NCBI RefSeq assembly: GCF_900187185.1
Contig: NZ_LT906465.1
Location: 434,001-498,000 of the forward strand
DNA length: 64,000 nt
Direction of reading: 5' to 3'
Source of the DNA: Chryseobacterium taklimakanense
GTDB taxonomy: Bacteria > Bacteroidota > Bacteroidia > Flavobacteriales > Weeksellaceae
This document shows positions 26,296-31,766 of the stretch, piece after piece. The notes beneath the pieces are model-generated. The model did no database searches. It was given only the letters and a program-made list of their open reading frames with translations, and had not been told where the DNA came from. Position 1 is the stretch's first letter. The number at the start of each line of letters is the position of its first letter. A program made the translations under genes and the position numbers.

Positions 26296-27949
26296 GAGAG
26301 TGTTGTTTATTTTCAGATTAATTCGTATATTGTACTGGTAATCAATACGATGTATGAATTTCAAAGACTATAATCAATCACAGCTGTTTTTGTTTCCCCC
26401 AACTTTTGAGGACCTGATCCCGGAATCTCATCCGGTTCGGGTGGTTAACGATATCATTGAGAAGATAAAGATCGAACCGTTATTAAAAGCCTATAAAAAA
26501 GAAGGCAATCCGAGCTACCACCCGAAGATGATGCTCAAGATTATGGTTTTCGCCTATATGGAAAACACCTATTCCAGCCGCAGGATTGAAAAACTGGTGC
26601 GCGAGAATGTCAACTTCATGTGGCTTTCGGGAATGAAGATGGTGGACCATAACACCATTGCGCGTTTCAGAAGCCAGCGCCTGCAGGATGCCTTCAAGGA
26701 TATTTTTCGTCAGGTCGTCCTGCTTTTGGCAGACGAAGGACTCGTCAGTCTGAAAGAAATATATACGGATGGCACCAAGATAGAGGCACAGGCGGGAAAA
26801 TATACTTTTGTGTGGAAAAAATCTATAGAAACAAGCAAGACAAAGATGCTCCAGCAGCTGGAAGAACTCTGGACCTACGCGCAAAACATTGCCGCATCCG
26901 AGGACAGGGATCCCGAGCCGCCGGAGTTTACCAAAATCAGCAAAGAGAAAATCCGTGAAACCGTGGAAAGTATCGACAGAAAGCTCAGCGGCAGCGATAT
27001 CCCGGACAAGAAGGGGAAAGCAAAAGCCAAAGCCAAACTTCGTTATATTAAAAATAATTTTGAACAGAACCTGGAGAAGTACGAACTTCAGGAAGAGATT
27101 TTAGGCGAAAGAGGCTCCTACAGCAAAACCGACCCCGATGCTACCTTTATGAGGATGAAGGACGACCATATGGGGAACGGACAGCTCAAGCCGGCGTACA
27201 ATCCGCAGATCTCCACCGAGAACCAGTTTATCCTGCACTACAGCATCCACCAGCAAACTACCGACAGCACGACGCTTCCTGATCATTTGGATGGTTTTAA
27301 AGAAACTTTCGGCGAAGAAGTTTTCGCCGGGCTTGAAAGCATCACCACAGATGCGGGCTACGGCAGCGAGGAAAATTACGAATATCTTGAGCAGGGCGGC
27401 ATTGAAGCCTATGTAAAGTACAACACGTTCGATAAGGAGCAGGACGGGAACTACCAGTTAAAGCACAAGGCCTTCAGCAAAGAGCATCTGCATTACAACG
27501 CTGAACAGGATTTTTACGTCTGCCCGATGGGGCAGCGGATGGAGAAAACCCACGAAAGCAGCAGGAGAACCAAGAACGGCTTTGAGCAAAAACTTTCGCA
27601 CTACCAGGCAAAAAACTGCGAAGGCTGCCCGATACGCAGCATGTGCCACGGCTCGAAAAACAACCGAAGTCTGGAGCGCAACCACAATCTGGAGCGGCAC
27701 AGGGAAAAAGTCCGGGAACTCCTTAAAAGCGACGAAGGCATCAGGAAACGCAAACGGCGCTGCTATGACGTGGAAGCCGTCTTCGCCCACATGAAACACG
27801 CCCACCAGTTTAGAAGGTTTACACTAAAATCCCTCAAAAAAGTCGAAATAGAGTTCGGATTACACGCTCTTGCACATAACTTAAGGAAGAAAGTGGCCTA
27901 AAAGGCCACCTTCAAACATATCTTTTCCTCAAAAATTAAAAGTCCTCTC
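26296..27949 (+). mobile_element. IS1182-family insertion sequence (boundaries tentative)
   Basis: One intact transposase gene with short flanks. Imperfect end repeats GAGAGTGTTGTTTATTTT (26296-) and, inverted at the right end, GAGAGGACTTTTAATTTT (to 27949) agree at 13 of 18 positions and would define a 1654-bp element, a usual size for the family. No convincing target duplication. It sits between two convergent terminators, so it disrupts no visible gene. The transposase is clearly more GC-rich than the surroundings. Confidence 0.6.
26354..27901 (+). CDS. IS1182 family transposase
   Basis: 515 residues. N-terminal DUF772-type segment (FPPTFEDLIPESHPVRVVNDI, YHPKMMLKIMVFAYME, SRRIEKLVRENVNFMWLSG) followed by the DDE catalytic core: EIYTDGTKIEA (first Asp), ITTDAGYGSEENYEYLE (second Asp) and the C-terminal DVEAVFAHMKHAHQFRRF with the Glu. 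A cysteine cluster CEGCPIRSMCHG lies before the last block. Full length with no frameshift, so potentially active. Confidence 0.95.
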   Translation: MNFKDYNQSQLFLFPPTFEDLIPESHPVRVVNDIIEKIKIEPLLKAYKKEGNPSYHPKMMLKIMVFAYMENTYSSRRIEKLVRENVNFMWLSGMKMVDHNTIARFRSQRLQDAFKDIFRQVVLLLADEGLVSLKEIYTDGTKIEAQAGKYTFVWKKSIETSKTKMLQQLEELWTYAQNIAASEDRDPEPPEFTKISKEKIRETVESIDRKLSGSDIPDKKGKAKAKAKLRYIKNNFEQNLEKYELQEEILGERGSYSKTDPDATFMRMKDDHMGNGQLKPAYNPQISTENQFILHYSIHQQTTDSTTLPDHLDGFKETFGEEVFAGLESITTDAGYGSEENYEYLEQGGIEAYVKYNTFDKEQDGNYQLKHKAFSKEHLHYNAEQDFYVCPMGQRMEKTHESSRRTKNGFEQKLSHYQAKNCEGCPIRSMCHGSKNNRSLERNHNLERHREKVRELLKSDEGIRKRKRRCYDVEAVFAHMKHAHQFRRFTLKSLKKVEIEFGLHALAHNLRKKVA

Positions 27950-30287: not shown

Positions 30288-30986
30288 TTATATTTTCACT
30301 AAAATTCCTGTCATTACAGCTATTCCGAAACTCAGCAGAGTGCCGATCAGTACATATTCTGTAAGTTTTCTCTGTTTGGCTTCTGCCAAGTCGCTGAATC
30401 TGAAAACGGATTTTGCTGCAATCATAAAACCAACACCTTCCCAATGGTTTACGACGATGAAAATGAAAACCAAAAGGCGTTCTAAAATTCCGATATATTT
30501 CCCGGCATTTGCCAGAGATTCCGTCTGTGGTGAAGTTAGATTCGGCGTTACCGGCGTCCAGCCCGAGATCAGCATTTTAACAATGATTGAAGCCGGGACT
30601 GTAACGAAAACGGCACCGGCAATCACTTTCAACAAATCAGAATTATCAATAAAGCTGAAATCAAATTTCATGACATAAAGCGTGATTCCAGCGATCACCA
30701 GAACGTGAAGCAACTGATCGATGAAAAACCAGTTCTTCCTGGTGTTTGGTTTTTGATACTGAAGTTTCGCTAAATCTATAATGAAATGTGATCCTGCCAC
30801 GGCAGCCGCAATCCACCAGAGATGAAAATCCCATAGCAGGAGCATGATGAGAGCGAAATGTATGAATGTATGCAGATAAAGATAGAGGCTTTTGGCCTTT
30901 TCCCTTTCTTTATCGGCAACCCAAGAATTAGGCTGGAAGATGAAATCTCCTAATAAATGTGCCAATATGAGTTTGATAAAGAGCAT
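30288..30986 (-). CDS. DUF3307 domain membrane protein
   Basis: 232 residues with five to six membrane helices. The N-terminus IKLILAHLLGDFIFQPNSWVADKE and the following HTFIHFALIMLLLW are diagnostic of DUF3307. Starts 1 nt after the satD stop; this satD-DUF3307 pairing is common in Bacteroidota, so the two products probably work together, with SatD as the cytoplasmic regulator. Biochemical function unknown. Confidence 0.85.
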   Translation of the reverse strand: MLFIKLILAHLLGDFIFQPNSWVADKEREKAKSLYLYLHTFIHFALIMLLLWDFHLWWIAAAVAGSHFIIDLAKLQYQKPNTRKNWFFIDQLLHVLVIAGITLYVMKFDFSFIDNSDLLKVIAGAVFVTVPASIIVKMLISGWTPVTPNLTSPQTESLANAGKYIGILERLLVFIFIVVNHWEGVGFMIAAKSVFRFSDLAEAKQRKLTEYVLIGTLLSFGIAVMTGILVKI

Positions 30987-30987
30987 T

Positions 30988-31593
30988 CTACAGTTCGGCT
31001 ATTTTTTTTCTGAAGTATTTGTCGGTTTCGGTAATCAGGTCGAGGTTGGCGCGTTTCAGGCGCTGGCTTACGGATGATTGGGTAATATTGAGTTTTTTGG
31101 CAATATCTTCCTGCGTAATACCGGAATTCATGATGAAAATGTGAATAATTTCCGCCACGGCCGGGGTCCAACTGTCAAAATCTATGGATGACCATTTGAA
31201 AACGATGTTCAAATCCTGATCTACGCTGTCTTTTGGAGTTTTGATGGCTAAAGTTTTGCCGTCGGATTTTATGTCATTAAGTAGTCTTCCTGAATTTACG
31301 TAAGCAGAACCGTTGGATTCGGTGATTTTTTCTGATGAGAAATTCTCTTCGCCGATCCCGATTGCCATCCTCACATCCAGGCTTTCATTGCACTTGATCA
31401 GAGATTTTATCGCAAGAAATATTTTGAAAACTTCATCAATATCACATTTGATCTGGAATTCATCTCCGCGGTAAACCTCCCATTTTTCAGGCGTTTTGCC
31501 CCAGTTCATCAATATTTTTTTTAATGAATCGAGCCAAATTTCTGAGTTGGAATTTTCAGAATTTATGATGTCGCCGGTAATTACTGCAATCAT
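30988..31593 (-). CDS. satD: SatD family protein with C-terminal HTH
   Basis: 201 residues. The start MIAVITGDIINSENSNSEIW and WEVYRGDEFQIKCDIDEVF are SatD-family signatures; the N-terminal domain resembles a degenerate nucleotide-binding/cyclase-like fold. The C-terminus holds a helix-turn-helix (GITQEDIAKKLNITQSSVSQRLKRANLDL, about 163-192). Family members are linked to acid tolerance in streptococci. Its promoter is overlaid by a dyad operator array, suggesting autoregulation. Start lies about 4 nt after the -7 box. Confidence 0.85.
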   Translation of the reverse strand: MIAVITGDIINSENSNSEIWLDSLKKILMNWGKTPEKWEVYRGDEFQIKCDIDEVFKIFLAIKSLIKCNESLDVRMAIGIGEENFSSEKITESNGSAYVNSGRLLNDIKSDGKTLAIKTPKDSVDQDLNIVFKWSSIDFDSWTPAVAEIIHIFIMNSGITQEDIAKKLNITQSSVSQRLKRANLDLITETDKYFRKKIAEL

Positions 31594-31597
31594 TAGG

Positions 31598-31628
31598 CAA
31601 AAATAAGCAAATAAACTTATAAACCAAA
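31598..31628 (-). promoter_or_regulatory. satD promoter
   Basis: Minus strand: TTTG (31628-31625), 19 nt, TATTTTTG (31605-31598); perfect Bacteroidota -33/-7 pair. The -7 box ends 4 nt before the satD ATG, so the mRNA should be leaderless. The spacer is occupied by the first unit of the dyad array. Confidence 0.65.
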
Positions 31629-31708
31629 ATTATAAGACAAATAGCTTATATTGTGAATATATTAGATAAAAAGCTAATAAATTCCATTTATAAGAAAATA
31701 ACCTAATA
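31602..31708. promoter_or_regulatory. Array of four 20-bp operator-like dyads, 29-bp period
   Basis: Units start at 31602, 31631, 31660 and 31689, exactly 29 bp apart. Each is half-site (TATAAG, TATTAG or AATAAG), 8 nt, inverted half-site (CTTATA or CTAATA): AATAAG-CTTATA, TATAAG-CTTATA, TATTAG-CTAATA, TATAAG-CTAATA. The 9-nt spacers between units are unrelated. Unit 1 lies between the -33 and -7 boxes of satD. The pattern fits a repressor binding on evenly spaced sites; the SatD HTH is the obvious candidate. Confidence 0.7.
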
Positions 31709-31758: not shown

Positions 31759-31766
31759 TATATTTG
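31759..31766 (+). promoter_or_regulatory. Candidate -7 box for the acyl-CoA dehydrogenase
   Basis: TATATTTG ends 15 nt before the preferred start at 31782; this overlap argues against the in-frame start at 31764. Confidence 0.4.

Follow-up and report, generated by a model that had tools for sequence, protein, structure and literature searches.

A periodic operator array upstream of satD genes in the Bacteroidota, very probably read by SatD itself

Our analyses indicate that satD of Chryseobacterium taklimakanense is preceded by a regularly phased array of four dyad-symmetric sites, and that SatD itself very probably reads this array, since the letters of the half-sites covary with the recognition helix of the protein. 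What was established by computation is the presence and geometry of the array, its association with satD, and the way in which half-site and recognition helix covary. Taken as one explanation, a cognate SatD array, occlusion of the satD-DUF3307 promoter and a nucleotide-handling palm domain account for the data in a way that we consider quite probable. The window, i.e. the whole stretch of 64,000 nucleotides that was analysed, contains on its minus strand, in this order, satD, a DUF3307 gene and purC, and the features of interest are the following.

30288..30986, minus strand: DUF3307 membrane protein gene (PF11750), second gene of the presumed satD operon
30988..31593, minus strand: satD (PF16264, 45.5 bits, cut-off 29; model pLDDT 89.3; fold comparison)
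31598..31605, minus strand: -7 element TATTTTTG of the satD promoter, from sequence, 4 bp in common with dyad 1
31602..31621, no strand: dyad 1 (promoter-proximal), AATAAG-CAAATAAA-CTTATA, one mismatch, overlapping the -7 element
31625..31628, minus strand: TTTG, presumed -33 element of the satD promoter, from sequence, 19 nt from the -7 element
31631..31650, no strand: dyad 2, TATAAG-ACAAATAG-CTTATA, from sequence
31660..31679, no strand: dyad 3, TATTAG-ATAAAAAG-CTAATA, from sequence
31689..31708, no strand: dyad 4, TATAAG-AAAATAAC-CTAATA, from sequence

Re-reading of the sequence confirmed the four dyads that the original prediction had placed at 31602, 31631, 31660 and 31689, the first of them with one mismatch. 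Each dyad spans 20 bp with the consensus TATWAG-N8-CTWATA, and the step between successive dyads is a constant 29 bp. The chain score of this array, which also includes a fifth, degenerate unit farther upstream that was left out of the dyad count, was equalled by none of 200 Markov shuffles (z 14.7), in agreement with the claim that such phasing lies beyond chance. The exact single dyad occurs four times in the 2.76-Mb genome (each time on the other strand too), three times in the satD array and once elsewhere, while its reversed control occurs six times in the same genome; single dyads are thus no rarer than expected by chance, and it is their arrangement in a row that is unusual. Allowing one mismatch, the two-dyad pattern was found three times per strand genome-wide, the number given by four dyads 29 bp apart, with 0 occurrences of its reversed control, and whole-genome scans with the single-dyad and two-dyad patterns revealed no second array in this genome.

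The promoter pair proposed for satD, a minus-strand TTTG and TATTTTTG separated by 19 nt, appeared as claimed. We take the TTTG at 31625–31628 to be the -33 element, so that dyad 1 sits between the -33 and -7 elements. The latter corresponds to TAnnTTTG, described as the sigma-A -7 box in Flavobacterium in PMC9723704. Among the 78 homologues with a significant array (see below), a TAnnTTTG box within 120 bp accompanies only 44, against 9.7 expected from base shuffles. In 33 of the 78 the box overlaps a dyad or lies directly next to one. This overlap, for which there was no separate control, is favoured by half-sites that end in ATA; of the 40 overlaps listed, 32 fall at dyad offsets 16 and 18.

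Arrays of this kind were expected upstream of other satD genes, and they are indeed present there. Of 296 Weeksellaceae genomes searched, 210 yielded a satD homologue, and 59 loci were fetched from them. The PF16264 profile matched none of 14 control genomes. Within Chryseobacterium, at least two dyads at a 28- or 29-bp step occur within 200 bp upstream in 71 of 72 loci, and a dyad with at most one mismatch starts 28 bp before the ATG in all 72, though these 72 loci include records fetched twice via two collections. One Chryseobacterium locus (L015:1281-1329) carries an extra dyad pair ∼105 bp farther upstream than the next dyad of the main array. Across the Weeksellaceae, the two-dyad pattern was detected in 41 of 65 satD-positive but only 2 of 83 satD-negative genomes (Fisher test, 3.5e-17, kinship ignored), the latter belonging mostly to other genera. 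In Flavobacterium, a two-dyad pattern with TATTAC half-sites was found in nine of 14 genomes and, among the matches listed, always at satD.

Searches at higher rank yielded matches in 76 of 246 genomes for the order and in 87 of 296 for the phylum, and 83 of the 109 places listed outside the family were fetched, the 26 omitted being mostly short, partial or weak, with six full-length. Counting the family and named loci as well, a SatD frame of 170–260 aa was present in 191 of 193 loci, which were reduced to 92 at <75% identity. Chains with 28/29-bp steps were significant in 78 of these 92 homologues at p<=0.05 and in 70 at p<=0.005. They comprise two to nine dyads, with 126 steps of 28 bp and 69 of 29 bp, and their end units can be degenerate. 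The period was picked after the data had been seen, and at p<=0.01 it was recovered in 72 of the 92 homologues versus one to four for other periods; at p<=0.05, where the score is somewhat liberal, the figures were 76 versus 8–15. Control placements gave 0/92 arrays inside satD and 2/92 in the region +700 to +1000. The same geometry emerged without any motif, given that, of the 92 upstream regions, 56 contain direct 6-mer repeats spaced by 28 bp and 29 contain such repeats spaced by 29 bp (∼5 expected), and 50 have inverted repeats at 14 (versus ∼5 expected). No significant array was detected in the remaining 14 of the 92 loci, six of which are distant homologues with a longer HTH. By eye, L056, one of these 14, shows dyads 29 bp apart.

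A later search at the class level added 29 newly matched genomes, of which 21 were tested, seven short HTH-only matches and G1060, present in two fragments, being omitted. All 21 homologues scored at p<=0.01, although in a few of them (e.g. L321 and L322) the array looks poor by eye. Likewise, plasmid copies of satD in Vibrio, Salinivibrio (two, near-identical) and Segatella were preceded by arrays in four of four cases (p=0.005).

While the period is constant, the half-site letters depend on the lineage, with TATWAG, TATTAC (in many Flavobacterium), TATCGG, TATCTG, TATTCC, TATCGT and others. Mutual-information tests were carried out on 64 of the 92 loci, those with an array at p<=0.01 and an unambiguous TATNNN half-site; of the other 28, 14 have no array and the rest show a weaker p, or a non-TAT or ambiguous half-site. 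When SatD columns were scanned against half-site bases 4–6, residue 177 ranked first (z 13.6) and residue 174 next (z 7.1), both falling in helix 172–181 of the model, the recognition helix of the SatD HTH. Correlations off this helix, at columns 186 (z 6.8), 49 (6.4) and 103 (6.0) and, for single bases, at columns 45 (z 10.7) and 165 (z 9.3), are put down to ancestry. The TAT core appears linked to a further position of the helix in the whole set of 78 array loci: 67 of the 71 loci that retain Gln172 carry TAT, and TAT is absent from all seven loci in which Gln172 is replaced.

Comparison of homologues at different distances points in the same direction. For pairs with N-domain identity of at least 35%, those sharing residues 174 and 177 differ on average at 0.30–0.40 of the three bases versus 1.54–2.20 in those that do not share them, a contrast that becomes small below 30% identity (1.73 versus 1.95 bases differing). 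In a set of 23 sister pairs without overlap, seven of the 10 with the same residues 172–174 and 177 have identical half-sites, as against two of the 13 in which these residues differ, two of the 13 involving an ambiguous base. Examples are L198/L203 (S174 to N, TATCGG to TATCTG; 72% identity), L139/L149 (Q172 to R, TATTAC to TGTTAC; 74%) and L052/L209 (G177 to R, TATTGC to TATTCC; 75%), pairs in which other residues differ too. A half-site rule fixed before the class search gave the complete half-site correctly at 10 of 19 unseen loci, where shuffling would lead one to expect 2.1; three of the 21 loci of that search are 77–83% identical to a training protein. The rule was right in 10 of 12 loci with a training protein of at least 40% identity and in none of the seven below. 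The code is thus real, yet this failure at low identity makes it context-dependent.

The PF16264 match is nearly full-length, covering residues 2–188 of 201 above the curated cut-off, and hence places the protein in the SatD family, whose name derives from the Streptococcus sat operon. The cyclase-like N-domain and C-terminal HTH that had been read from the sequence are backed by a confident AlphaFold2 model and by fold comparison, the palm domain (GGDEF/cyclase/Cas10-like) occupying residues ∼1–120 and the HTH residues ∼145–182. The N-domain aligned with Cmr2/Cas10, GTP cyclohydrolase III, GGDEF and adenylyl/class III cyclase structures with Z ∼10–12. In the Foldseek search Panoptes OptS (9pd0) was among the rows, and no match reached E<=0.001. 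The palm carries two aspartates, D8 and D44, which we take to be metal-binding positions on the basis of cyclase/GGDEF motifs, and both are kept in 76 of 78 SatD proteins of array loci. The modelled palm fold and these kept residues make a nucleotide likely as ligand or product of SatD.

From this set of observations we infer binding of SatD to the array, repression, cooperativity and a ligand, which may be combined as follows. SatD would bind the dyads through its C-terminal HTH with one recognition helix per half-site, one dimer occupying each 20-bp dyad and successive dyads following every 28–29 bp. Since dyad 1 shares bases with the -7 element and sits between -33 and -7, SatD bound there should occlude RNA polymerase and repress the satD-DUF3307 operon, in a negative and probably cooperative autoregulation that the palm domain would probably modulate by binding or making a nucleotide that alters DNA binding. 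The idea that SatD acts on its own promoter thus gains from the phylum-wide arrays and the helix covariation, which assign the array to SatD and make it very probable that this is the operator of its own gene; autoregulation, understood as the protein on its own promoter DNA, is supported indirectly through that covariation. In arrays with a 28-bp step one half-site follows the next every 14 bp, corresponding to one third of four helical turns; a regular SatD polymer on DNA is therefore conceivable.

The partner gene is a constant companion, as 77 of the 78 array loci have a DUF3307-like frame on the same strand within the downstream sequence that was fetched. Its product matches DUF3307 in Pfam and nothing else; the model (mean pLDDT 69) is of low quality over the second half, and neither a usable fold match nor a sequence match in the PDB was obtained. 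Within the protein encoded at 30288–30986, residues H10, D14, H39, H43, H67, D71, D90 and H94 are invariant in 13 aligned sequences and lie mostly in helices of the model, which suggests a membrane metal site.

It had been stated that no operator of this form was described, which was too strong, since, as reported in PMC3920265, HipB of Escherichia coli binds four TATCCN8GGATA operators before hipBA. These operators appear to be the closest known to the SatD array, with a common TAT...ATA core and several dyads located before the two-gene operon of the binder, a role that SatD would play here. Multiple copies are found in both systems, with four dyads in the window and chains of two to nine in the 78 homologues. 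The HipB HTH aligns with that of SatD with Q and S in common in the recognition helix, in a match that is weak (E 0.014). The window dyads TATWAG-N8-CTWATA differ from the HipB-type consensus TATCCN8GGATA, and span 20 bp (6+8+6) compared with 18 bp (5+8+5). Unlike HipB, SatD possesses a palm domain, its partner matches DUF3307 in place of a HipA kinase, and its half-sites diversify by lineage at a constant period of 28/29 bp. The open-licence literature searched, as far as its texts were available, contained no mention of a SatD operator or of a DNA-binding role for SatD.

A second point of reference is Panoptes. Its OptS/mCpol enzyme (PMC12657218), like Cas10, has in common with SatD a palm nucleotidyl cyclase/polymerase fold, and both genes have a membrane-protein gene as neighbour. 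What sets SatD apart from those palms is its C-terminal HTH and the operator array before its gene, and its partner matches only DUF3307 in Pfam, with no mCpol and S-2TM-beta effector combination as in optSE. This likeness bears on the possibility, tentative and rather doubtful, that SatD and DUF3307 form a toxin-antitoxin-like or guard module in which SatD, in addition to repressing the operon, restrains a harmful membrane DUF3307 protein, a reading that would add to the preferred explanation. Both genes are closely paired, including on four plasmids, one of them conjugative; HipBA offers a precedent for autoregulation via several operators, and Panoptes (PMC12657218) for a membrane effector held in check by a palm enzyme. 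Moreover, satD of S. pyogenes was essential yet accessory in transposon screens, as reported in PMC11323703, which hints at an antitoxin- or guard-like role. Against this, SatD hit only weak HTH entries in PADLOC, whose 2023 library predates Panoptes, and DUF3307 hit no entry there, the DUF3307 fold has no usable structural match, and DUF3307 as a neighbour of the streptococcal satD is an assumption. The plasmid-borne satD-DUF3307 pairs with arrays correspond to loci L289–L292. Going further, one could picture an unrecognised nucleotide-signalling guard module, in which an HTH-fused palm senses or makes a nucleotide, lies filament-like on its own promoter and frees a membrane effector upon disturbance of the nucleotide pool, while turnover of operator letters prevents cross-talk between coexisting modules; as a whole, this picture is speculative and distinctly improbable.

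As to the sign of the regulation, SatD might bind the array as an activator, or a ligand might switch the sign, instead of SatD being a simple repressor. The resemblance of its N-domain to nucleotide-binding palms is compatible with such a switch, and in several loci the last dyad starts 40–100 bp before the start codon, a location compatible with activation. However, in the window, as in the 33 arrays mentioned above, a dyad overlaps or directly adjoins the -7 consensus, which favours occlusion, and a repressor is the simplest reading of the overlap between TAnnTTTG and dyad. Hence, we regard activation or a ligand-dependent switch as unlikely.

Some arrays lie outside the satD locus. A second two-dyad array is present in 16 of 20 Chryseobacterium genomes, amounting to 17 arrays, each joined directly to the stop codon of a gene for a patatin-like protein, as determined by script for 16 of the 17 and from ORF coordinates for the last. 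At L090–L106, L268 and L269 (e.g. L268:11914-11962) such arrays, with SatD-type half-sites, run across the stop codon of the gene for this patatin-like phospholipase; in the neighbourhoods read, an M15 peptidase gene adjoins and the more distant genes differ (DUF2589, LRR, tail-like). One genome in which no satD was detected (G041) carries two two-dyad arrays at gene 3' ends (L314:1501-1549 and L317:1501-1549). In another, G013, an orphan array stands beside purC with the first satD codons remaining (L079:1472-1549), satD having been lost and the operators kept. Such arrays might suggest that another HTH protein reads the sites and that satD is merely a regulated neighbour, as the same half-site recurs in two-dyad arrays at a Chryseobacterium locus devoid of satD and arrays exist in two satD-negative genomes. 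Nevertheless, the half-site letters track the recognition helix of SatD itself, and the array of the satD-negative G013 sits at the truncated beginning of a satD that this genome has lost, so that a different reader seems very improbable to us. Chance or a mobile family (tandem repeat, MITE or terminator) is hardly credible, because in spite of the AT-rich DNA, the tandem-repeat-like even spacing and the location at gene 3' ends of the arrays away from satD, conservation is confined to the half-sites, the N8 centres and spacers being variable, and the strong specificity of period and place makes such an origin very unlikely for the satD array as such.

Cognate reading by SatD would provide an uncharacterised family with a concrete likely function, that of a self-binding regulator whose DNA target can be recognised from the letters alone across much of the Bacteroidota and in some plasmids beyond. 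The dozens of natural helix/half-site pairs constitute material for learning and testing an HTH recognition code. In addition, a palm of the Cas10/cyclase type would be tied directly to transcription control, and the SatD ligand becomes assayable.

The original prediction also considered control of the divergent acyl-CoA dehydrogenase gene by the array, which relatives did not bear out. In the window, the likely -7 element of this gene (31759–31766) lies ∼50 bp beyond the array. An acyl-CoA dehydrogenase gene was found within 3 kb of satD in 36 of 51 named loci; in the 27 named loci with a long match it is always divergent, with its 5' end ∼2.15–2.55 kb from satD, while the array stays in place. 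Elsewhere in the window, a 515-aa ORF at 26354–27901 resembles, by eye, a DDE-type insertion-sequence transposase.
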